From: Eudorina sp. 2006-703-Eu-15
Taxonomy: Eukaryota; Chlorophyta; Chlorophyceae; Chlamydomonadales; Volvocaceae
NCBI GenBank assembly: GCA_003117195.1
Contig: BDSI01000029.1
Location: 933,023 to 997,022 of the forward strand
Direction: 5' to 3'
DNA: 64,000 nt
Shown: positions 3,523 through 63,073 of the stretch, piece after piece
Layout of the letters: each line of letters starts with the position of its first letter
Position numbering within the stretch: the stretch's first letter is position 1
Made by a program: the position numbers and the translations under genes
Notes under the pieces: generated by a model
The model's database searches: none
Told to the model about the DNA's origin: nothing
What the model saw: the letters and a program-made list of their open reading frames with translations, nothing else

Positions 3523-4224
3523 TCAGAAGCAAGGCAATGAGCTCACGCTTCGGTCTTGGAGAGAAAGAGAACAACGTCGAGCTTCGCTCGCGTTGCCACA
3601 TAAATAGCAGCCCAAACGACCGTACGATCGCCTGCCGTACAACCACCAGTACGTCATAACCAACCAACCTGCTCGGGAACCGCAACGGGACAAAACACCA
3701 ACGGTGCCTGACAGGGTCTTGACGGCCTGCGCGGGCCTGGGGTTCTCCTTCTCAAACTGGGCGACAAGCTCTGGCACATCAGCGCGCAGGGTCGCCTCGT
3801 CGATGTAGAGGTTCTCGTGAACATCGTATCCCTTGAACTTGACCAGATAGGAGACCTTGTTCGTGATCGGGGTGATGTTGCGCTTGAGAATGGCTTCCAC
3901 CTCGTAGAACAGGTCGCCGGTGTCGTTGATGATCGGCTCGGTGGAGCCTGAGTCCTTGTCTCTGGGCGGGAATTTGGGCTCAGACAGATACGGGCGTACC
4001 TGACTGATGTTCACAACTGGGTGGATCCGCATGTGGGCCGGCAACTTGAGCTTGATCGCATTGCGGGACACCACTGACTCGACCTCGAGAGGACCGATGT
4101 ACCGCGGGTTGAACTTGGTCCGGGACGTTTGCGTCAGCAGGCGCAGGTTTGCAGTTGTCAGCAGAACCTTGTCACCCGGCTTGTAGCGTACGTCCTTGCG
4201 CTTGATGTTCACGTGGCGGGCCTG
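3523..4224 (-). pseudogene. Integrase GPY/F tail and chromodomain of the chromovirus
   Basis: This stretch is in the same frame as the integrase ORF upstream and is separated from it only by a TGA codon at 4227-4225. It contains the GPY/F module (RYIGPLEV, then IHPVVNISQVRPYL) and a chromodomain of about 55 residues (YEVEAIL, YLVKFKGYD, then an ELVAQFEKENP helix). Chromodomains of chromoviruses bind methylated H3 and direct integration to heterochromatin. The expected WEP-type residues are altered: NLYIDEATL stands where an NTWEP-like motif is usual. About 65 residues of unrelated sequence follow before the stop at 3523, so the natural end is uncertain. There is no ATG; the piece would be expressed only by stop readthrough. 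Confidence 0.75.
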
Positions 4225-6063
4225 TCATGTTTGCGCGGCGCGCACGTGTGCCTTTGCGATTGCTAGGGCATATTCTCGGGCAAGCATGAAGTCGGTGACT
4301 GCCACGTTCGCTGGCTCCCAGTTCGGGTGCGATTCCAGCAGTGACAGTGGGGTCTTGGGCTCAAAGCCAAGCACCAGACGGAAGGGTGAGTACCCCGTCG
4401 ATGCCTGGACAGACGAGTTGTAGGCAAACTCGAGTGAGGAGAGGAGGTCACACCAGTTGTTCTGGGTGGCGTCCACATAGTGCCGAAGCATCTCCTCCAA
4501 GGTGCGATTCGCACGCTCGGTCTGCCCATCTGTCTGTGGGTGGTTCGCCGTGGACATGGCCAGCTCTGTACCCGACAAGGAGAACAGAGTCTGCCAGAAG
4601 GTGCTTGTGAACTTGGGATCTCGGTCAGACACAATGCTGTCTGGGTGGCCAAACATGGTGAAGATCCAATCATGTGCCACCTCGGCCAGGTACTCGGCCG
4701 TGATGTCCGTCTTGCAAGGGATCAGCCGAATCATCTTGCTCAGCCGATCGACGAACACAGCAATTGCGTCATCGCCTTGGTGTGACTTGGGCAGTTGAGT
4801 GATCAGATCCATCGAAATGGACTGCCACGGTCTCTCGGGGATCGGCAGCGGTTGGGCTTTGCCCGGCACCTTGCCATGCCTGGGTTTCATACGCTGGCAG
4901 GATGGGCATGTGTCGATGTAGCGTCGAACATCATGGTCCATGTGCGGCCAGTGAAAAGCGCGTCTCAGGCGGGCCACGGTCTTGTCACGGCCAAGATGGC
5001 CAGCCAGAGGAATGTCATGCGCCTCGTGTAGCAACTTGGCGCGTAGACCTGGGATATCTGGAATCACCAAGCGTGCACGCAGGGCACCTGGGGGCTCGAA
5101 GTAGAGCAGCCCGTTGTACAGCTTGTACAGCGACTCGGGATTGGACATGGCCTGAAGGCGGAGTTGCATGTATTCAGCATCCTTGCGGTAACCCGCCTTG
5201 ATCGTGTGGGCCAAGTCCTCCTTGGGTGCGGCGACTGTAACAGTCAGGGCCGCGGCTCGGAAATCGGGCCGGCGACTAATCGCATCAGCCACGACGTTGG
5301 TCTTGCCAGGTTTGTGCTCGATGACGTAGTTGAATTCCTCCAACTCCATCAGCCAACGAGCCTGTCTGCGATTGAGCAGCGGCTGCGTCTTGAACTTGGA
5401 TACGGCAGAGTTGTCCGTCCAGATAGTGACTGGGTGCGGACCCTTGAGATGGTGCCACCACACACGGAGGCAGTGCACAACTGCCATCATCTCCCGATCG
5501 TGCGCGGCGTACCGACACTCGGTGGGAGTGAGCTTGCGGCTCTCGTATGCAATGACTCGTTCTTTGCCGTCTTGGACCTGGGACAGGACGCCACCGGTCG
5601 CGTAATCTGACGCGTCCGTGGTAACCGTGAAAGGCAAATTGGCGTCCGGCGGGGCGACGACGGGCGCACTCGTAAGTGCGTCCTTGATGGCTTGAAAGGC
5701 CTTGGTGCAATCGTCGTCCCAACCCGTGATCAACTGCTTGGTGCCTTTGCCTGTGTGGCCGGCGAGCAGATTGGTCAGGGGCGTAGCAAGGTGAGCGAAT
5801 CCCTTAACCATTCGGCGGTAGTACTGCGCAAGTCCCAAAAACGAGCGCAAATCCGTGATGGTCTTGGGCTGCGGCCATTTGGAGACCGCATCGAGCTTGC
5901 GAGGGTCAGCAGTGATGCCATCAGCGCTCACGACGTGACCCAAGAAGTCGATCTCGGTGACACCGAAGGCACACTTGGATGCTTTAGCGTACAACTTGTG
6001 TTCTCGCAACAGCACTTGTTCCAAGTGGTCTGCGTGCTCCTCAGTGGTCTTGGAGTAGATCAG
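4225..6063 (-). pseudogene. Chromovirus pol, RT thumb, RNase H and integrase
   Basis: The frame is open from the RT-deletion junction (6063) to a TGA at 4225. In order it encodes the end of the RT palm/thumb ([16 protein letters not shown]), an RNase H domain ([33 protein letters not shown]), an integrase HHCC finger ([13 protein letters not shown], then CPSCQRM) and the DDE core, with Asp in SMDLITQLP, Asp in VSDRDPKF and Glu in [12 protein letters not shown]. All residues expected for RNase H and integrase catalysis look intact. The block is therefore recent, but it is cut off from the upstream RT by the deletion and from its own chromodomain by the TGA. Confidence 0.85.
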
Positions 6064-7436
6064 AGGTACACCAGTACAAACTGGTCCAGGAACGGACGGA
6101 AGATGTTGTTCATCAGCCGTTGGAAGGTGGCTGGGGCATTGGTTAGCCCGAACGGCATGACCGTGAACTCGAAGTGCCCGTAACGCGTGTTGATCGCGGT
6201 CTTGGGAATGTCCTCCTCCGAAACTCGGATCTGGTGATAACCGGACTGGAGATCGATCTTGCTGAACACTTTGGCGCCGTGGAGGCGGTCCAGCAATTCG
6301 TCTATGCGTGGCAGGGGGTAAACGTTGCGCACCGTGGCCTTGTTAAGGGCGCGGTAATTGATGCACATACGCAAACCACCATCCTTCTTGGACGCGAAGA
6401 GGACTGGGGCACCGTAGGGAGAGACGCTGGGCCGGATATGACCTTGGTCCAGCAACTTGGTGATCTGGGATTTGAGCTCGGCCAACTCTTCTTGCGACAT
6501 GCGGTATGAGTTCCGACTCATCGGCTCATGGGTATTGAGCTCGATCTTGTGGTCCACCGCACGCTGCGGTGGCATCCCCTTGGGTTCATTGAACACATCC
6601 GGAAACTGGTTAAGTACAGGCGACATGTCGACTGCGGGCTTGGGCCCTTCCGGGGTGTCAACCTCGCGTACGACGCAAAGGTTGTACGACCGTGTGGCTC
6701 GGACCAGGCGCTTGAACTGGAGGGCGGACAGCAGCTTGGGTTTATGCTCTTGCATGGCCGTGGGCGGGTCCGAGTGCAGGACCAGCGTTTTGGCGCCTTG
6801 GGAAAGCGTGAGCGTGTTCTTTTGCCAATCGATCTGGGGGTTGAATCGCTTGAGCCAGGGTTTGCCGAGTACCACGTCAAAATCGCCAAGGTCAGTGGCC
6901 GTAAGGGTAACACGGCTCTTGTGCGACTTGAGGCAGACGGGCACGTGGGGCAACACATGGGGGCAATCTTGGTACTGTCCGTTGGCTAGCTTGACCCGAA
7001 GGTCAGGCACAGCCTTGGCCGCCTTGAGGTCCTTCCGAGCGAGCCACTTGGTGCTGACAAAATCACCGGTTGCGCCGCCATCCACAAGGATGAGTGCTCG
7101 GCGGCCGCAAACTGTTCCGGCGAAAAGCAGCTGCTGGGCACCTGCGTCCAGATGCACGGCTGCTAAGAAAAGCTCTGGTACTGGGGGCTCATGAGCATCT
7201 TGGGCCTGGGAATCCGGGGCTGGGGCTACGGGTTCCGGGGTCTGGGGCTCGGCTAGGGGCACAGGGGATGTACTGGGTTCCTGGGGGTTCTCGGGTTCCT
7301 CTGGGGTGTTCCTGGTGGTTTCTGGGACAGGGATTGGAACAGACGAACCTAGGGGTTCAGAGGCAAGGGCCCCTAGGTTTACTTCTCGTTTTTTCGGAGC
7401 GGGCACTCGATCGCCTTGTGCTTGCCGGTGCGGCAC
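6060..7436 (-). pseudogene. Chromovirus protease and N-terminal reverse transcriptase, active site lost
   Basis: The frame overlaps the gag end by 58 bases in the -1 frame. It encodes an aspartic protease ([14 protein letters not shown]; the usual Ser/Thr after the catalytic Asp is Gly here) and RT fingers/palm ([53 protein letters not shown]). It ends at a TGA directly after LVYL, exactly where the Tyr-x-Asp-Asp catalytic box should follow. About 10 bases are missing relative to the family pattern, taking out both Asp codons and shifting the frame. The start at 7436 is a GTG inside the gag overlap and is not a true start; pol would be made by ribosomal frameshifting. Confidence 0.85.
7346..7394 (-). 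promoter_or_regulatory. -1 programmed ribosomal frameshift signal at gag/pol
   Basis: On the minus strand the heptamer A AAA AAC lies at 7394-7388 and is in the correct phase with the gag codons (CGA AAA AAC GAG AAG TAA). An 8-nt spacer (7387-7380) leads to a perfect 10-bp stem: AACCTAGGGG at 7379-7370 pairs with CCCCTAGGTT at 7355-7346, with a 14-nt loop. Slipping back one base continues exactly into the protease frame. Heptamer, phase, spacer and stem all match known retroviral -1 frameshift sites. Confidence 0.88.
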
Positions 7437-8506
7437 CGGAAGCAGAGGCCGCTCTCCATGAGCTTCACCTTCTCCTCGGCCGACAGCTTCTGGAGCTTGG
7501 GCGGCGCGGAGGTATCGGTTTTGGGCTTGGGCGGCGGGCCGTTCTTGCCCTTCTTGGGCACGAACTTGCTTGGGTTGAGGGCGTTGACCTCCATGACGCT
7601 GGTGTCCTTGGACGTGGAGGCACCGCCTTGGCGAGACGGTGCGCCAGCGCTCTTGATGGCGTGGTCAATGCTCTCGGCCTTGTCGCACAGCTCGCTGTAG
7701 GTGAGCTGGTCGGGCTTGGCCACCTGCACAGCCAAGGCAACGCGGACCTCGGTCAGCAGCGCCGCGATGAGGCGCTCCTTCTTCTCGGACTCTGCGATGT
7801 TGGGGATGTGCAGGCACAGCCAGTCGATCTGCGTGACCAACGCAGAGACCGACCCCTTGTACACGACCTTGCGCAGCTTGGCTCGGGCCTTGTCGGCGGC
7901 AAGGTGGTCCGTGAACTTCTGGGCCAGGTTGGCCGTGGCGTCTGGGTACGCGAACACCTTGCCCTCGATGTGGGTACGCCAGTACAAGTTGGCGTCACCC
8001 GTGAGCATCTGCGCCATGGCGGTCATGCGGCTGGTGTCGTTGAGGCCTAGGGCATCGAAGTAGTTGTTCGCCCGGTAGATGAACTCGTCCCAACGCAGCT
8101 CGCCCTTCTTGCTTTCACCGGAAAAATTGGGCGGGCGCAGGTGCTTGAGCACATCTTTCATGACCAGGGCTTGCAACGGGGCTTGGTGCGCGGTCGTGTA
8201 GGCAGTTTGCTGGGCTACTTGCTGCGCCGTATGGTGGGCAACGGCGGCGGCTTGCTGCTGTGCGATGGCGGCTGCGTGCTGCACAACTTGGTGGGCAGCG
8301 GCGCTAGTGGCTTGGTGTGCGGCTTGGGAAGCTTGTTCAGCTGCAGAGTTGATGGGGGACTGCAGCGTTTGCTGAACGTGACGCACTATCTCAGGCATGG
8401 CTTCACGCATCAGCTCTTGCACCAAGCTACGCACGGCTGGATCTTGGTCAGGTGCAAGTGGGTGAGACTCAGCATGCTCAGAGCGGGGCGTTTGTTGTTC
8501 CTCCAT
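7379..8506 (-). CDS. Chromovirus Gag (capsid/nucleocapsid)
   Basis: This is an intact 375-residue ORF starting with ATG at 8506. The N-terminal ~120 residues are rich in Gln, Ala and His and probably helical. Residues ~125-320 look like the retrotransposon gag domain ([19 protein letters not shown], then [12 protein letters not shown]). The C-terminus has one CCHC zinc knuckle ([14 protein letters not shown]) for RNA packaging. The stop TAA at 7381-7379 is the 0-frame end of the frameshift site. The ATG follows the stop of the upstream ORF by only 2 nt (TAA CA ATG), which would suit termination-reinitiation, although an internal leader is equally possible. Confidence 0.85.
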
Positions 8507-8508
8507 TG

Positions 8509-9534
8509 TTACAATTCAGAGGAACCTTCGACAACAACCACCGCCACTCGCAAACTACAGCTCCTTGGACGGCTTGGTTCCGGCCGCCGGCAGGCTAGCC
8601 CGCGACGGCTGGTTCTTCTCGGACCGGGACTCGGGCCTGGACTCGGGCCTGGGTTTTGGCGCTGCGGCGAGCTGAAGATGGGCTCCGGGCCCGGGCGCTT
8701 GTACGGGTTGCTGCCGGAGGGCTGGGTACCGTAGTGCGCAGCCAGCAAGGTGGAGATCTGTTCGGCCAATGGGATGCGCCTCAACTCAGCCAACTCCTGC
8801 TTGGTCCGCTCCAGCTCCCGGTTCTGAGCGACGTACTTGCTGTGCCGCTCTTGGTCCTTCTCCTGCAGGCTGTGAAGCTCTTGGTCCTTGGCGCTAATGA
8901 GCTCGACGTGCATGCTCAGCTGGGTCTTGAGGGCCTCGTAATCATCCTCGTACTTGGCCAGCTGCTTCTTGAGTTCGTCGCGCTCTTGGACCAGCAGGTG
9001 GTACGGGGTGGGCCTGTAGGGTGAAACGTCTGGGGTCTCGACCTCGGTGTAGCGCTCCAAGGCGCCGTAGGCCGTGTTGAAGCTAACCAGCTCGGTCAGG
9101 AGGGCCTCGTTGATCAAGGTGTAGACGTCTTGGATGTTGTCAACCGCCTCGCGGGTCTTGGTGATGAACGCATTGAACAGCGGGTAGCTTGAGACGTCAC
9201 CATCGGCGATCGACAGCAGCAACTTGAACTGATCCTTAGTCTCGTCCGTCAGGGTCTTGGATTCAGCGAAGGTCGTGAGGGCCTCCTTTTCCTCTTTGGT
9301 GAGGGCCGGCTTGAAGCTTCGGAATGTAGGCTTACGGCAGCAAGCGTTCAGCGTGCTCCTGAGGTGCTCCGCGGCGCTGGACAGCGCAAAAAGCAGCTTG
9401 TAGACCGCATCCCGAAGGGCAGGCCGGACAGGGCTGAGACGCTTGGTGGTTCGGATAGCCTCGTCGTAGGCCGCAATGAGACCTTCCAGGGACGGGCTCA
9501 GGTCGTCAAGGTTCTCGGGCAGGGACTTGGGCGC
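8509..9534 (-). CDS. Coiled-coil ORF upstream of gag in the chromovirus
   Basis: The frame is open from 9534, directly after a TAG, to TAA at 8509: about 341 codons with no ATG in the first 100. The middle is strongly heptad-like (LVQERDELKKQL, then LERTKQELAELRR). The C-terminal part is Pro/Ser/Gly-rich with a PGPSPGP repeat. The very end may be out of frame: one base over at about 8590-8545, the other frame reads as a more natural tail ending in KEL and a stop. It is probably part of the element because it abuts gag and shares its orientation and composition. I do not recognise a family; it may be an extra structural or Gag N-terminal protein. A lost start codon is likely. Confidence 0.5.
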   Translation of the reverse strand, partial: APKSLPENLDDLSPSLEGLIAAYDEAIRTTKRLSPVRPALRDAVYKLLFALSSAAEHLRSTLNACCRKPTFRSFKPALTKEEKEALTTFAESKTLTDETKDQFKLLLSIADGDVSSYPLFNAFITKTREAVDNIQDVYTLINEALLTELVSFNTAYGALERYTEVETPDVSPYRPTPYHLLVQERDELKKQLAKYEDDYEALKTQLSMHVELISAKDQELHSLQEKDQERHSKYVAQNRELERTKQELAELRRIPLAEQISTLLAAHYGTQPSGSNPYKRPGPEPIFSSPQRQNPGPSPGPSPGPRRTSRRGLACRRPEPSRPRSCSLRVAVVVVEGSSEL

Positions 9535-21361: not shown

Positions 21362-35556
<14,195 letters not shown>

Positions 35557-45089: not shown

Positions 45090-48000
45090 ATGCAGAAGTC
45101 TGCCTTTTTTAATGGCACTGTTCGGTCTGGGCAAGTCTCGGCGGTGACTGTACCTCTGGTTAGCGAGTCCATCGTCGCACAGGCACCGTCTACCATACTG
45201 GGCAGCCAAGCTTGCAACCGCGGCGTTCGGTTTCCATCAAGTCGAAAATTTCTCTGGGACAGAACACCGTTGGGTCACACGAAAATTTTCTTGCTCACGG
45301 TGCGATGAGTTCAAGGACTTCGCCCCTTGTTCATAAGCAGGCTGTCTGCAACATGTACATCGCATACCCACGCAGGACAACCCGCCCATTCTCAGCGCTC
45401 CAAGTGACCTGCATCGGCGACTGGGGCTAGGAGGCACTTTGACAGCCTTGGTGACGTGCCCCACTAGCAGTCGGTTACAAATCACCATTCATCCTAGCGC
45501 GACGCCGTACGAGTGTAAGCATGCGCGTCGCACACGTTGCTCCGTGTTGCCCGCCGCGTGTCCTTCACTGCCTTCACTTATGCATGGCGTTATTGCGCTG
45601 CAGCCGGCGGGTCACTGCCGATACTGGTCAGTCCGTCCTGTGGCGGGGGTCCCAGCCACGAGACTCTGGACCTGCTCCTTCGGAACATTCAGCATGGTCT
45701 TGATCGGCGGGGGGCCTTGGGCCTTCAAGTCGGTCTCGCGCTTGCGATGGCCTTCGACTCCAGGAGCAGCACTGCGTCATCCAGGCTGACAGTAACACTC
45801 CTGCTGCCTGCGGCATCGTTGACTCTGACGCCGCTGTACGCCAAGCGGCTGTGTGATACGCCCCTGGCACAGACCCTGGCGCAGCACCCACCGGAGGGTG
45901 ATGTCCAGGTACACAGCCGCAGGGGCGCTGGATCTGCAGCCTAGCTGATAAGCAGCCGGCTGCCTGGAACGCGGCCCTAAGGGCGGCGGGGCCCATGCCG
46001 CTTGTTGCGAATTGCGCCGGGTGTGATTACGCACGGCCGCGCGAGCACGGTCACCATAACCTCCGATTCGGATGGCTCACCACTAGCTACTTAACAGCTC
46101 AATCGTGAGCTTTGCTGAGCCTGAAAAGTGGCCGCAAGCCCACGTCGGGATATCCTGTGGGCGTCCAGCCGACGGACAAGGCTTGGCAAATTTCTCTACT
46201 GCCCGTCCCCGCAGGCAGGCTACCTCACCATGGACCAGGCTCGAAGCCTGCTTCCACTCACCGCAAACGACCCAAATGTGGGTGCTGTCTCATCTGTAGG
46301 TCTGACCTGTCCGCTGCCAGCGACCAGAATGTAGGCCCACTGTCCCTGCACAGGTATGCCAACATGCTGTACTCCGCCACATCCCATCCATGAAGGGCAG
46401 ACGAGCGATGTACGCACTTGGTTATGGCCAGGCAACAGCGTCTGGAATAATTGAGCCCCTCACATGCCTGAAAACTGACTTTTTTGCTGTTACCCTTGGC
46501 ATGATGTTTCACAGGTTTACAGTGTGCCGCTGGTGGGTGTATGGGTGCACGGCGTCCGCGGGTTGGAGCACCCTCTCGTGTACGGCGCCGCGCTCCAATT
46601 CGCGTACTGCTCTACGCTGCCGGACCGCGCCGTACAGCCGGACGGCGCCTTTCTGGTGCTCATCTTCACGGGAGGTACGTTAACGCAAGGAAGGTGTCGC
46701 GGCATGCTGCGTGTTTGCCGATAGTAGGGAACAACGTGCCTTCAGGATCATAGCATCCGGGCTTGGGATGCGCATTGGTCGATGCGGCATATGGCCTGAT
46801 GGGGTCCAGGCTTATACCGCACCTGAGAGGTCGTGGTTCGCAACGCAACATTCGAGATGCACATGGATAGTTTCCATCGAAAAACCTGGAGGCCCCAAGT
46901 GCGCTGCAAACACTTCAGTGCGACTGCTCGGGGAACCGTGGCGTCCGTGAGTTCAGGACATGGCCCAAACTAACCTGACCAGGGTTTTCGGTATTTCTAT
47001 TTGGGCGCAAGGTAGCGTATGCGACATGCAACGGGCGTGTCTGCGCGCTGGGAATACCTTATGTGTTAAATGCCTTTCTGAACAACGGTAAGGCTGTGGG
47101 GAGACGGACCGCCGCCGGAGCTGTCGTGTGGCGCGATAGGATGTGCGTGAGTGTGATGAGCGTGGTGGTCACCACCTGCGAGCACATCGTCTGTATTCAG
47201 CACCCCCGATGACGTCGAATCAAAGCGCAAATACGCACGCGAGCACGAATGTGCGTGCCAAGGCCTCCGTATTGAGGGAACCACGACAGCTTGGCAATCA
47301 CCTGGGGTTTCCGTGTGCCCTGTGCACCTGCAGAAAGCCCAGTGCCGCGTTGCTACGAGGCGCGGTTCACAGACACGGCGCAGAACCAGCAACCGACAAA
47401 CCGCCAGGATGCGCCCGACTCGCTATTCAGTCCCACCGCCGCCTCTTGCGGCGCTGGTGGCGGCGATGCAACTGGCGCTGCCCACAGCAGCAGCGGCCTC
47501 AAAATCCGCCCGTACATTGCGAGGGCTGAGCTGACAGGGCAAACCTCAGCGCCCTTGGAGCTGAAGCCTGTCCAGGACTTAATTACGGCAGCAGCAGCTG
47601 GGCCGCGGCTCATGTTACCCGCAGCAGCTGACCGGTCGTTGGGTCAGACTCCTCAGCGGTCTGGCAGAGTCCTTGCTGACACACAAACGCCGCGTGCGGC
47701 CGGCGGCGGCATATCAGAGCTCAGCTGCAGACCGGCGTTTGCCACCCCAGGGCCAGCAGCAGTGCTGGGTACCGTCTCCAGGTTTGATGCGTACGGCGTT
47801 TACCAGTTGCGGGGAAGCGGCAGCAAGCTGATGACCAGCCCCAGCAAGGCCATGAAAATCCTGCCCGAGGATGCTGGAGATACAGGACTGCTGCAAGACA
47901 GACCCATGCATCCCAGCGCTGGCATTGGCGGTACCATCAGAGGTTGTGTCTCGTGGGGAGCTACGGGCAACCCGTCCGCGGCGGCGGATTCGTCAGCAGC

Positions 48001-51000
48001 TGGGGCAGGGGCCGGGCTGGTTGGTCCAAGCTCGAGCCCCAGGATGCAGTCCTGCGAGGCCGGCAGCCAGGCCGCGGCGCTCGCTGGGCCATGGACGGCA
48101 TCTGGACCAGGTGCCCTGCAGTGTTCCGGACCACAACGCGACTCGCCGCCGGTGCCCTGGAGCTCGGCAGTGCCAGCACCATTCAGGTAGGCCTCCGTGG
48201 GTATCACTGATGCCATGTTTTGGTCAACAACTGGGCCCAAACGGGACCGTCAGCGTGCACTATTAATTCCTCCGCCCTTTTGAGCGCCTGCCTGTTCTGC
48301 CGACTCACAGTGTTGCTTTGTGCACAGGATGGGGCCAGGCCCCGCATGGGACGACGCGCGGGTCCCTAACACCACACACCATGGGCCGGCGTTTGGAGGG
48401 ACACTAAGCGGCAGCAATGGCAGGCATGGAGAATCTTCGGCGGCGGCCTTGCAACCCCGGGACCCCAGGTGCGGCGTGGTAGCGTTCAGGCCTGCATCCT
48501 GTACGCCGATAGTTTGGGAGTGACGCCAGAGGATTAGCACGGATGACGTAGCCGCTGGGATGTCCGCGTGAGGTGCATCAACCCGGGGTTGCGCCCTCCG
48601 ACTACGTAGGTTTTAAGCCAACATGTCACGGTGCTGGCATGTCAGCCGATGTCGCGTCGCTGGGCATGGGATTTGCACTGCGTTGCGGTGCAGTGTACCT
48701 CGGCTGTCCTGGGGTAATGTCTAATGTGGCATGCAGTCAATGTCTTATAGCTGGCATGCTGCCAGCGTTTGCCGCCTAAAGAGGTCAGGCAGACATAGCT
48801 CATCATGTGTCGCTGTGTCGACTCCCCGATTAGGTTGCAACACCTGCACACACCTGGTGCTGAGGCAGGCGGCGACCGTTCCGCATCGGCCGGATGGGAA
48901 TCTCACCGCCACACCACGGATGATGACACAAGCCGGCTGCAACAGTCAAAACCGCCGTCAAAGGAAGTGTTATTCTCTTTGGCAGCCAACACACAGCAAG
49001 CTGAAACGAATGGCGCAAGCAAGCGCCGGCCATGTGTTACGCTGGGCTCATCAGCGGGCGGGCCGGAGTCGCAGCTGGCGGCTGCAACGGCCGATCGCGC
49101 CGCGCTTCGGCCATCTCAACATGGCTTCTTTGACGGCCTGTGCACTGAGGGCTTGCAGAATGACACGGCGTCCGCCAACGCGGATGCGAGTGTGGGGCCC
49201 GAGACAGCAGTCGGGTCGGGGGCTACAAGAGCCGCAGGTAGCCTCCCTGGACCCAAGCAAGCAGGACTTCGATACACCACCGCTGCCATGACTGCCGTGA
49301 ACCCGGTGTCCAGCCAGAGCCTGGATGGGTGGCTCCGCGCTAGCGGGTGGAAGGACTCCTCGTCGCAACCTCAGGGTCAGGCAATTGCCGGGGAACCCAC
49401 CGGTCCGCCCACCGCAGCATCTGGGTCACCGCATCGCCACAGTTCTGGTGACTTCGGGCGGGCCGGCAGCAGCAGTAAGGACGCCTCGCCGCGGATCCAA
49501 CGGCCGCAACCCTGGATTTTGGAACGTGCCCGGCACAAAGCTGCAGCCACTGCTGTGGTGCCGGCACTGCACCTATTGTCACGACCAGCATCCGCAGATC
49601 CGCATAACCAGCCGCCACGCGGCCACCCACAGCTATGGCGTCCACGCCACACCGCGTCTCTGGGAGCGGGACAGTCTTATGGCGTTCTCGGGGAGTATCC
49701 CTGGGCTGGTGTGCAACCCAACGAGGACAGCCTCAGCCAGGGCTTCACCTCGGCATCAGGGTCTGGCACGTTAGATTGCGAGGGGCTGCGAGGCCGGTCC
49801 CGTGTCCCGATGACAGGCGAGCCTGACCTGCAGCAACCTACTGGGAAATCGTCCGTAAGGCAGCATCTTCAACCAAAAGCCTGCCAGCAAGTCCAACAAT
49901 ACACGCAACAATCTCGTGGCGACGGGCGCCCTCAGCTCATGTGCTATTCCCGTCAGCATCAACAGCGATCCCAACCTCCGCGGGCACAACAGTTCCAACA
50001 GCCTCGCGGCGGCGTGGTGCCGAGCATGGTACATCCAGATGAAGCGGAGGGCATGGAGCTTGTGACCTCGGCCTTGATGCCGGCGGAAGACGACCTACCC
50101 GACGATCCAGTGTTGCTGAAGCAAGAGGTGCGGCGGCTGCGGCGACAGGTGAGGGTTCACGTCTGGCCATTTAAATCCCTGGAAAGGGAGTCGCGTGCAG
50201 GTGGGGCAGCCGCATTTGAAACGACTGGCGGGTTTAAAATCCTGTGAGAGATCAGGCATGTCAGTTTGTCTCAGCAATGGGAAACGATTAGATGCTGTGC
50301 CTCCATGATATCGTCGTGTGCAGTATGCCGTTCGTCACAGTGTGAAGGGTGACGTTTTCACAGTCTTCGATCGCGGAGCAGTTGTCACATGGATGTCTTT
50401 TCGAATGTAGCTCCCTGTGCACAACGCCAATTACGCCAGGTCGCCGAGATCCAGCGCCAGCTTCAGGAGCAGCGGTTTCAGCCCGTCGACGGACACCGGG
50501 GCCACACCTGCACGGCAGTGCTGCCGGAGGCGATTGACTGCCCGGGGCCTGCCCCTGCCATATCCGCCGCTGAAGAAGCCACATCAAGTGACCAGTCGTT
50601 GCAGCAAACACCGCTGCTACCGCCGGCGTCAGCTCTGCCGCCGCCACCGCAACAACCGCTGGGCGCTGTGGACGTGTTCGCACGTGATCGGCGCGGCCCC
50701 GCTAGCGCCATCTACGCCTCAATCGCTTCACTCCAACACACAGCAGCTGCGGTGAGCAGCACCCTTTCCCCCACAACAAATGCCAGCTTGGCCTTGTCGT
50801 TTACAGCCCCTGTGCCAGGCAGCGACAATGCGTGCTCCATGGCGCTCGGGGCCCGTCGCGACGATTGTGCTCAACCGCCGAATTATGGGGCGCATGTGGC
50901 CGCAGCCGCCTGCGGCCGCTCAGAGTGTATGGCAGTGCATTCGGATGTTTCTGACGGGGACAGCGTATGGAGAATGGCATCCCTCCGCAACTCAATCCTT

Positions 51001-52268
51001 TCCTGTCACACGAGCGGGGATGCCTTGCGGCCTTCCCTGAGTGGCAGCAATGACGGCAGCGGTGCAACAGGCTACAGTGCGGACGCTGACGATGCCTCTA
51101 ACGGTAGCGGCGGTGGCAGTAGCGGGGAAGATTGCGGCAGCGTGTCCGTGCTGGCCGGTGGCAGCGCGTGCCCAACATACGGACACCACGTAGCTGGTCC
51201 ATGTGCCGCAGCTGAGCAAATCAGAGACAGCTATGAAAGCGAGCAGCCCGATCCTGGTATGTCGTCACCGGGCCAGTCCTGCTTGCTGCTGTATGGCAAT
51301 GAATCAGGCTTGCAGCTTGATAAGCAGGGGCCGGGGGCTGCCACTGCAGCGGCGCTGGCGGCAGCAACAGCTAGCGCTCCACCTAGACATGACAGCAGCA
51401 CCGGGGCGCCCTTAAGCCAGCACGAGGTGGGCAGCCGCTGGCCATCACCATCGCCTGCGCCGTGCAACAGCAATGCAGGTTGGACGGCTAAGCGGTCTCA
51501 TGTCGATGGCCGGGCTCTGCCCTGGAGGTATGTGAACGCTGACAACATCAGTCATCGCGGCCGACGGCGTGCAAGATCTATTAGCAGTGAGAGCGGCAGC
51601 GACCGCTCCCTGCTGTCGGATCCTGGTAAGCCTGCATGATGATGCGGCATTTGTATGTCATTGATGCGCATCGTCTTGAGGAGCTGTGCCTGGCATCAGG
51701 GATCATAAAGAACTCACAATGGGCTCGAAAGGCCATCATGAGCGTAGCCAGATATTCCCGGCCTGTCCAAGGGCAAACTCCATCCGACGTCCCGAAAGAA
51801 GTTCCATTACTGACAGTGCATGTCGGCGGGAATGCAAAGAGGCGCTTTTGCATCCTTGTTCTAACTGCCGGCATGTCCGCACTGCCTCTGGCGTGTGAAC
51901 TGTCGGGGTCCGTGCTGCTATCCCGTACAGAAGACGGCCCTGCGCTCTCGCGGCCGCCAGCTCCCACGGAGCCCGACCGGAACAACTGGTGCACGTCGCA
52001 GCCGGCGGGCATCGCAGGGAAGGCCACGCAGCAGGCTGCGGGCTCCAACGACGCACTTCATGTTCAGCCGCACCGAGTGTCGGTGTCGGAGCCTGCATCC
52101 GCGTTGTCGTCCCCACGGGCCTCCTTGGGGACCGGCTACGTGGCTGCGGCGACAGCATCAGGCCCGCTGGTCCGAACCACTTACATACCTCTGGATGAGG
52201 AAAGCGATGGCGGTGATTCGGAGTCAGAGCTGTTATTGATGCACAAGTATGGTATCACGGCTATGTAG
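45090..52268 (+). CDS. STIL/Ana2/SAS-5-like centriole assembly protein
   Basis: STIL/Ana2 proteins recruit SAS-6 and are activated by Plk4-type kinases at the start of centriole/basal body duplication. Ten exons join in phase (1569 residues; human STIL has about 1290): 45090-45299, 45376-45514, 45604-45908, 46215-46277, 46515-46674, 47334-48186, 48328-48468, 48834-50148, 50440-51625, 51931-52268. The ATG is the first after an in-frame TAG. Residues ~55-305 follow the conserved STIL N-terminal domain: LWDRTP, GYLTMDQARSLL (220-231), VYSVPLVGVWVHGV (240-253), FLVLIFTG and RCYEARF. A long disordered Ser/Gln/Pro/Ala-rich middle follows. A short coiled coil spans the exon 8/9 junction (LKQEVRRLRRQVAEIQRQLQEQ less its first residues; ~1051-1072). 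The last residues (SELLLMHKYGITAM) resemble the STAN motif that binds SAS-6. A PRIQRPQP stretch in exon 8 could be a CPAP/SAS-4 site. Family membership rests on remembered motifs. Confidence 0.85.
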
Positions 52269-61372: not shown

Positions 61373-63073
61373 ACGGCAGCGGCTTCATCACGCGGGAGGA
61401 CCTCATCCAGGCGCTCAGTAAGACCTGTACCCCCGCGGAGATCGACGGGCTGCTGGCCCAGGCGGACAGCAGTGGGGACGGCCGTATCGACTACACCGAA
61501 TTCTGCGACCTCATGCGCGTGTGAGTGGGGGCGAGACAGGGGGGGCGGGACAGGGGGGAGGGAGGAGGGAGGAGGGAGGAGGGAGGAGGGAGGAGGGAGG
61601 AGGGAGGAGGGAGGAGGGAGGAGGGAGGAGGGAGGAGGGAGGAGGGAGGAGGGAGGAGGGAGGAGGGAGGAGGGAGGAGGGAGGAGGGAGGAGGGAGGAG
61701 GGAGGAGGGAGGAGGGAGGAGGAGGGAGGAGGGAGGAGGGAGGAGGGAGGAGGGAGGAGGGAGGAGGGAGGAGGGAGGAGGGAGGAGGGAGGAGGGAGGA
61801 GGGAGGAGGGAGGAGGGAGGAGGGAGGAGGGAGGAGGGAGGAGGGAGGAGGGAGGAGGGAGGAGGGAGGAGGGAGGAGGGAGGAGGGAGGAGGGAGGAGG
61901 GAGGAGGAGGAGGGAGGAGGGAGGAGGGAGGAGGGAGGAGGGAGGAGGGAGGAGGGAGGAGGGAGGAGGGAGGAGGGAGGAGGGAGGAGGGAGGAGGGAG
62001 GAGGGAGGAGGGAGGAGGGAGGAGGGAGGAGGGCAGGTGGGCCGTACAAGCCTCGGCGCCCCCTCCACCAACGTCGTTCCGCCCCTCCTCCCCGCGAGCC
62101 CATCCACCCCATCCCATCCCACCCCTTCCTTACCCTGGTCCGTTTCACCTCCAGCGGCAACAACGCCCTCCCCAAGGCGGCTCGCACCGTGAAGCAGGGC
62201 CTTATGCGCTCCCCCGCCTCCCAGCTCGATCTCTCACGCCTCCGCGTCGAGAGCCTCTCAGCCCTTGACGTGTACGGCCCCACCGTCACTGCCGTACTGA
62301 TACCGCCCACGGAACTGCAGCGGCAGCAGCAGCAACAGCAGCCACAGCAGCAACAACTGCCGTCGACGCCGCCGCAGCGGCAGGCGCCGTCGCCGGCCTC
62401 AGCTTCCCTGAAATCCCCATCCTCCTCCGCCTCCTCCTTCTCCTCCTCCCCCGCCTCGCCGGCGACGGCTCCGAAGCGAGCAACCGCTTCGTATCTGGCG
62501 GTGCAGACGCCGTCGCAGCCACCGCCGCCGCCGTCGTCGTCATCGTCGTCATCGCAGCGGTTGTTGTCGGTGCAGAAAACCTCCTCACAACAGAAGCGGA
62601 TGTCGGCGGAGGGGAGCAGCGGCGGCGTCGGCGGCAGCGGCGGGAGCAGAAGCAGCCGCAGCGGCGGCGGCGGCGGCGTGCCGATGGCGGTGTCGGGCCG
62701 CTGGTCGGTTGCGGGGCTGCCGCCCATCGCTACTCCAACGCCGCGGCGGCTTCACCCCTCCCTGACCACGCACAACGCCGGGACGGCGGCGGGGGCGTCG
62801 GCGGCGTCGGCGACGGAGGCGGTCCGCAGCCGGTCCATGCACGTGCCGTCGCCGCTGACGCCGTCGTCGCCGGCGCCGGCGCCGACGCCGCTGACGGGGC
62901 CGCACGGCCTGTCCCTGAAGCGCCCCCCGTCGCCCAGCTCGCCGCTCTCGCCCGTGTCGCCCCTGACGCCTATGTCCCCCACGTCGCCGCTGCTGTCCAC
63001 GGCGGGGGAGGAGGGCGGGGGGCTGGTCAGTGCGCTGCACGCGGTGTCGTTCAGCGCCGCAACGGGCAGCTAG
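61373..63073 (+). CDS. Calcium-dependent protein kinase-like C-terminal region (EF-hands plus long tail), 5' incomplete
   Basis: Two exons are clear: 61373-61520 and 62155-63073, joined in phase (GT|C). The first has the CDPK-type EF-hand pair: the end of loop 3 (DGSGFITREDL; its last ligand is Asp, not Glu) and a full loop 4 (DSSGDGRIDYTEF), then FCDLMR. The second encodes about 305 residues: NALPKAARTVKQGLMR, then Gln, Ser, Pro and Ala-rich low complexity with many SP/TP sites (PLSPVSPLTPMSPTSP), and a TAG at 63071. EF-hands in CDPKs switch an upstream kinase domain, which I cannot find in 57-61 kb. An upstream exon at 60922-61018 would fit in phase but does not look like a CDPK. The kinase part may be missing, far upstream or lost. 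Confidence 0.68.
   Translation, partial: TAAASSRGRTSSRRSVRPVPPRRSTGCWPRRTAVGTAVSTTPNSATSCACEWGRDRGGGTGGREEGGGRREEGGGRREEGGGRREEGGGRREEGGGRREEGGGRREEGGGRREEGGGGRREEGGGRREEGGGRREEGGGRREEGGGRREEGGGRREEGGGRREEGGGRREEGGGRREEEEGGGRREEGGGRREEGGGRREEGGGRREEGGGRREEGGGRRAGGPYKPRRPLHQRRSAPPPREPIHPIPSHPFLTLVRFTSSGNNALPKAARTVKQGLMRSPASQLDLSRLRVESLSALDVYGPTVTAVLIPPTELQRQQQQQQPQQQQLPSTPPQRQAPSPASASLKSPSSSASSFSSSPASPATAPKRATASYLAVQTPSQPPPPPSSSSSSSQRLLSVQKTSSQQKRMSAEGSSGGVGGSGGSRSSRSGGGGGVPMAVSGRWSVAGLPPIATPTPRRLHPSLTTHNAGTAAGASAASATEAVRSRSMHVPSPLTPSSPAPAPTPLTGPHGLSLKRPPSPSSPLSPVSPLTPMSPTSPLLSTAGEEGGGLVSALHAVSFSAATGS
61556..62031 (+). repeat. (GGAGGGA)n 7-bp homopurine array in the EF-hand gene intron
   Basis: About 68 units over 475 bases with two phase slips (about 61712 and 61902). 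It fills most of the intron 61521-62154. All frames across it stay open; those ORFs are artefacts. Confidence 0.95.

Follow-up and report, generated by a model that had tools for sequence, protein, structure and literature searches.

A STIL-family gene in the volvocine green alga Eudorina and its likely role as a basal body adaptor

Background

The centriole assembly protein STIL/Ana2 is described as oligomerizing via a coiled coil, binding both SAS-4/CPAP and SAS-6, and being phosphorylated in its STAN region by PLK4 (PMC4554922, PMC5833631). In human STAN, S1116 is a PLK4 site (PMC4359743), and the contact of human STIL with CPAP is made by a PRXXPXP motif located in CR2 (PMC5833631). In the worm, the C-terminal 15 residues of SAS-5 are predicted to be helical and to bind the coiled coil of SAS-6 (PMC4554922, PMC5833631). 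The STIL N-terminal domain consists of two subdomains, and CEP85 binds subdomain 1, with L64/R67 as the binding residues; the same study found no evidence of a contact between CEP85 and subdomain 2 (PMC5928214). The structural core of the centriole is described as made of proteins universal among eukaryotes, but the STIL/Ana2/SAS-5 family is said to diverge fast and to tend to escape orthology inference; assembly driven by PLK4 is reported for metazoans only (PMC10425847). STIL has also been followed among fungal flagellar genes in a 2026 paper (PMC13358043). Here, we describe a STIL-family gene at positions 45090–52268 of a 64,000-nucleotide stretch (hereafter, the window) of contig BDSI01000029.1 from the green alga Eudorina sp. 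2006-703-Eu-15.

Identification of the gene and its relatives

The N-terminal region of the predicted protein (the window protein) matches Pfam STIL_N (PF15253) with an E-value of 1.9e-24 and 86.8 bits, against a cut-off of 27, and a search of solved structures gave one significant match, 5oi9 (E = 7.1e-16), the STIL N-terminal domain of Trichoplax adhaerens. Hidden Markov models (HMMs) built from four animal and from six non-algal protist STILs recognized the N-terminal 310 residues with E-values of 5.3e-30 and 8e-32, respectively; with both peptide motifs masked, the values were 2.9e-9 and 3.6e-13, and the best of 500 shuffles reached 0.57 and 0.23. Judged by these comparisons, chance is excluded as the source of the similarity. 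The original prediction, made from the DNA alone, had assigned this green-algal locus to the STIL family; the Pfam match, the structure match and the masked HMMs bear this out, and the STIL_N profile search that it had proposed as a check is the Pfam result given above.

A protein search yielded 13 relatives, including five volvocine proteins: P0001 (Volvox africanus, 56% identity across 99% of the searched region), P0002 (Astrephomene), P0003 (Edaphochlamys, HYH03_008991), P0004 (Pleodorina starrii, 71% across 59%) and P0005 (V. carteri). The proteins examined have about 863–2,746 residues. A search with the full-length alignment gave at least seven matches, four of which had not been found before. 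UniRef already labels four algal matches (both Volvox, Astrephomene and Pleodorina) as 'STIL N-terminal domain-containing', and the Ochromonadaceae record P0019 bears the STIL_N family name, so that the earlier statement that STIL is hard to detect outside animals, with the novelty it implied, is not supported in that form. The gene is a further member of a known family, algal members of which have already been labelled via Pfam; what this analysis contributes is the joint evidence for the layout, together with the fold match in a stramenopile and the pattern seen in subdomain 2. Among the matches listed from the open-licence literature (titles and starts of abstracts), no paper on algal STIL was found, nor any combining STIL, Volvox and centriole.

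In an IQ-TREE phylogeny of 22 N-terminal regions, the window protein groups with Volvox and Pleodorina, and the six volvocine proteins (100/99) are nested in a clade of ten chlorophyte proteins (100/99), in which Trebouxia is also found and Monoraphidium joins the volvocine clade at 96/94. The animal proteins, five in number, cluster separately (100/100), and the deeper forks are weakly supported. The original prediction presupposed a Chlamydomonas orthologue; Chlamydomonas reinhardtii, C. incerta and C. schloesseri are not among the matches listed under the length filters used, which leaves presence or absence undecided, although Edaphochlamys is among them; unusual gene-model length, the extent of the list or loss could explain this. 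The STIL-family protein of Monoraphidium minutum (P0007), a member of the Selenastraceae, carries the tail motif described below. Flagellate stages are not known in Selenastraceae.

In a conservation scan of a six-protein alignment (the window protein and its volvocine relatives), the mean was 0.581 across aa 47–310 and 0.275 beyond residue 310. With the subdomain boundary set, approximately, at aa 180/181, subdomain 2 is better conserved than subdomain 1 both among volvocines (0.75 vs 0.43) and against eight non-chlorophytes (0.32 vs 0.18). Near the positions of L64/R67 the window protein has basic residues, and the alignment of subdomain 1 is full of gaps. Subdomain 2 is the conserved half, and therefore points to an ancestral partner of that subdomain.

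At the extreme N-terminus, a motif SA(Y/F)F(P) was seen in the window protein (SAFF at 45099–45110, aa 4–7), in P0001, and in P0006, P0012, P0014, P0018, P0019 and P0021. SAYFP is identical across Trebouxia, Ochromonadaceae-like and starfish STIL, and P0020 has SYFP; this is possibly an overlooked STIL motif.

Structure of the gene

The predicted gene has ten exons (Table 1) and comprises 1,569 codons plus a TAG, without frameshifts or internal stops; all introns are GT..AG and the phases are consistent. The ATG is the first in-frame start downstream of a stop seven codons upstream. The GC content is 63.6% in the coding part and 56.3% in the introns. Both peptides quoted in the original prediction are present, GYLTMDQARSLL at 46218–46253 in exon 4 and VYSVPLVGVWVHGV from 46515 in exon 5. 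The exon joints were examined in a MAFFT alignment with P0001–P0005, in which P0003, a model joined to a Rieske gene, was trimmed to its first 1,170 residues. All nine joints are spanned by three to five relatives each, without a window-specific gap or insertion at the joint; P0004 and P0005 do not include the first exons, exon 4 is missing from P0005, and joints 6–7 are not covered by P0004. The coordinates of the ten-exon model with consistent phases are right, and its joints are backed by relatives.

Two variants of the model were rejected. A 105-nt in-phase open stretch in intron 5 (46983..47087, +), taken as an extra exon, is present in none of the five relatives. An alternative exon-4 donor at 46296, 18 nt into intron 4, would add six residues; because none of the four relatives covering the site has them, the donor at 46278 was preferred. 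The V. carteri entry P0005, as deposited, has no exon-4 peptide (its relatives read GYLTMDQARSLL) and is missing most of exons 1–2, probably through an error in the gene model.

Table 1. Features of the gene and of the surrounding window (positions in the window; aa, residues of the window protein)
Feature	Position	Strand	Remarks
Exon 1	45090..45299	+	aa 1–70; start, N-terminal SAFF, FPSSRKFLWDRT block
Exon 2	45376..45514	+	aa 71–117; subdomain 1 of STIL N-terminal domain
Exon 3	45604..45908	+	aa 117–218; STIL_N Pfam match and subdomain 2 begin here
Exon 4	46215..46277	+	aa 219–239; AGYLTMDQARSLLPLTANDPN; GT donor at 46278
Exon 5	46515..46674	+	aa 240–293; VYSVPLVGVWVHGV, core of subdomain 2
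Exon 6	47334..48186	+	aa 293–577; STIL_N end, island LRGSGSKLMTSPSKAMKIL, SAS-4/CPAP-peptide-like block RDSPPVPWSSAVPAPFR
Exon 7	48328..48468	+	aa 577–624
Exon 8	48834..50148	+	aa 624–1062; long, poorly conserved linker; end falls within coiled coil
Exon 9	50440..51625	+	aa 1063–1458
Exon 10	51931..52268	+	aa 1458–1569 and stop
Island LRGSGSKLMTSPSKAMKIL	47795..47863	+	aa 447–469
SAS-4/CPAP-binding-peptide-like block PWSSAVPAPFR	48155..48328	+	aa 567–577; last codon split by intron 6
Coiled coil DDPVLLKQEVRRLRRQVAEIQRQLQEQR	50101..50475	+	aa 1047–1074; spans intron 8; three heptads
Conserved C-terminal tail VRTTYIPLDEESDGGDSESELLLMHKYGITAM	52170..52265	+	aa 1538–1569; proposed SAS-6-binding tail
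Integrase-bearing fragment	715–2172
Retrotransposon-type matches	3526–7664	-	aspartyl protease, reverse transcriptase, RNase H, integrase, SH3, chromodomain
ORF	8512–9534	-	no family above cut-off
Tandem array	25795–27886		8-bp CGGACCTC, about 271 copies
Tandem array	28421–28633		9-bp GGAGGAAGA, about 24 copies
Tandem array	61552–62033		7-bp AGGGAGG, about 69 copies

Coiled coil, proline block and C-terminal tail

After aa 310, the conservation scan recognized five longer islands (358–378, 447–469, 562–578, 1048–1066 and 1538–1563) as well as shorter ones. The coiled-coil segment, with hydrophobic residues spaced 4-3-4-3-4, falls in the fourth of these, and a helix is predicted there in relatives. 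Pfam CC_STIL matched neither the window protein nor four relatives, with bird STIL as the control at 1.2e-15. The coiled coil was the best place for a profile from nine non-algal STILs in seven of 11 algal and related proteins; in the window protein, which has a Q-rich background there, 123 of 500 shuffles scored as well. The predicted central coiled coil is therefore retained as a conserved heptad segment in STIL order, and not as a match to CC_STIL or to the cross-kingdom profile.

The third island contains a proline block resembling the SAS-4/CPAP-binding peptide, which reads PWSSAVPAPFR in the window copy and PRSSAVPTPFR in P0001 and P0004; most relatives have Arg where the window copy has Trp, and the spacing of the algal block differs from PRXXPXP. 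A looser pattern, PR-x(1,4)-(I/L/V)-P-x-P, exists in seven of ten chlorophyte proteins, the unplaced P0017 and three of six other protists, and arises by chance in 6–176 of 2000 shuffles per protein; it was not found in the window copy, P0005, P0007, P0013, P0019 or P0024, and P0015 was not included in the scan. On its sequence, the block is suggestive only as a SAS-4/CPAP peptide. The island LRGSGSKLMTSPSKAMKIL (conservation 0.83), situated after the STIL domain and ahead of the proline block, has no counterpart that could be named and is only partly present in Edaphochlamys.

At the place of the conserved tail, a short helix is predicted with low confidence in relatives. Shuffled sequences scored as well as the window tail in 48 of 1000 cases against the animal STAN profile, in 500 of 1000 against the other (first) animal STAN segment, and in 82 of 1000 against a protist-only profile. 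A profile trained on animals and protists together gave 0 of 500 (33 of 1000 in another register), which separate training did not uphold, and we do not claim that the algal tail is animal STAN. The animal STAN profile gave 2 of 1000 each for the tails of P0002 and P0004, and 132, 110, 253 and 157 for those of P0001, P0005, P0007 and P0016; P0003, P0015 and P0017 were left out of the tail and STAN profile tests. A profile of the algal tail applied to the last 60 residues of P0018, P0019, P0020, P0013 and P0012 was equalled by 1, 2, 2, 5 and 13 of 1000 shuffles (1, 25, 68, 2 and 95 in a first version with the last 120 residues, a length at which P0024 gave 848 of 1000). It does not find animal STAN (132–891 of 1000 shuffles as good). 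By these profiles, the tail is probably common to the green algae and the Ochromonadaceae-like proteins, and it is not established as the equivalent of STAN. Of the STAN-like end first proposed, what stands is a C-terminal tail that is conserved and lies where the order of STIL places it, without a significant animal STAN match in the window protein; and the 'complete architecture' of STIL was too much to say, given the CC_STIL result, the two window-tail tests against STAN and the Trp for Arg in the CPAP peptide.

In the two Trebouxia proteins P0006 (residues 1071–1085) and P0014 (residues 771–785), a stretch PDMSLDSRMYLHM, about 23 residues downstream of the tail motif, matches the animal STAN core (1 and 0 of 1000 shuffles, respectively). 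Possibly, the Trebouxia tail represents an older STAN made of two parts, only the first of which survives in volvocine proteins.

Other features of the window

On the reverse strand, the region 3526–9534 is read by us as the remains of a long terminal repeat (LTR) retrotransposon of the Ty3/gypsy kind. A second integrase-bearing fragment and three tandem arrays are also listed in Table 1.

Discussion

At the level of sequence, three elements are seen in STIL order: the STIL N-terminal domain, then a heptad segment and a C-terminal tail, both conserved. The predicted gene encodes a green-algal member of the STIL family, and the protein is likely to serve as an adaptor coupling SAS-6 cartwheels to SAS-4 at the start of a new basal body. 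The coiled coil would make the protein oligomeric, the proline-rich block would bind the TCP/G-box domain of SAS-4, and the C-terminal acidic/serine stretch with its short helix would bind the SAS-6 coiled coil, as in worm SAS-5. Subdomain 2 would dock on a partner at the mother basal body. Since PLK4 is reported as the driver of assembly only in metazoans, SAS-6 binding is proposed to be free of PLK4: it might occur constitutively or depend on a different, acid-directed kinase. More tentatively, STIL may be older than PLK4; green algae and ochrophyte stramenopiles would then keep a PLK4-free form in which the C-terminal acidic/serine helix binds SAS-6, and the ancestral docking surface would be subdomain 2 instead of subdomain 1, to which CEP85 binds.

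Several observations tell against an adaptor of this kind: the poor match of the window tail to the animal STAN profile, the Trp in the proline block, the report that Plasmodium and Toxoplasma are without SAS-5 (PMC8705618), and the lack of a TGTAA signal within 1.2 kb 3' of the stop, a weak point of the gene model. The first two would also fit a protein that is STIL by descent and has another job in algae, for example in basal-body maturation, the spindle or the cell cycle, its link to SAS-6 and SAS-4 having been lost, as would the long linkers, which have diverged more than the N-terminal domain. However, the coiled coil, proline block and tail account for three of the five longer volvocine-conserved islands, and the tail motif is also found in Ochromonadaceae-like proteins, so we regard another job as rather unlikely. 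Still less probable is that the window copy is decaying, or that a formerly working STIL gene has been modelled wrongly: the Arg-to-Trp change in a peptide conserved elsewhere and the missing TGTAA would agree with this, but 1,569 uninterrupted codons, canonical splice sites, nine joints backed by relatives and a subdomain 2 as conserved with volvocine relatives as given above do not. Animal contamination or a recent transfer, in favour of which nothing was found and which is refuted by the volvocine clade nested in the chlorophyte clade and opposed by the nine introns, and an N-terminal fold of other descent, ATG7-N-terminal-like or MPN-like, that merely resembles STIL, which the sequence disfavours, are both extremely improbable.

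That STIL belongs to the ancestral centriole pathway, as originally suggested, is strengthened by the stramenopile relative and opposed by the apicomplexan report cited above; given an ancestral STIL, the condition of Plasmodium and Toxoplasma is therefore a loss. From the sequences compared, STIL is likely to be part of the ancient cilia-building machinery. As the family extends across chlorophytes, an ochrophyte and animals, the SAS-6/SAS-4 adaptor would have existed early, including where PLK4 is reportedly not the driver. A role for STIL without PLK4 becomes an experimental question in Volvox, an alga open to gene tagging, and subdomain 2 is the place to seek the missing partner.

Comparison with known systems

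Animal STIL (bird, fish, starfish, and Trichoplax 5oi9/5oid) shares with the window protein the STIL_N domain and the order of proline block, coiled coil and tail. It differs in that subdomain 1, which binds CEP85, is poorly conserved in the algal protein, and in that STAN with its PLK4 sites is not significantly matched in the window protein, whose CPAP block has another spacing and Trp for Arg. C. elegans SAS-5 and Drosophila Ana2, compared here by their published description, would be alike in role, being oligomeric adaptors whose C-terminal part binds SAS-6 (PMC4554922). Among the volvocine STIL_N proteins and Edaphochlamys, identity to the window protein is 34.9–39.4% over the aligned residues of the whole protein; those of V. 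africanus, V. carteri, Pleodorina and Astrephomene have the same tail, whereas the Edaphochlamys model continues from the tail into the Rieske-domain gene. Although shorter (755–938 aa), the Ochromonadaceae protein P0019, together with P0012, P0018 and P0020, resembles the window protein in the SAYFP start (SYFP in P0020), the N-terminal domain, the coiled coil and a tail ending in Ixx(K/R)Y.
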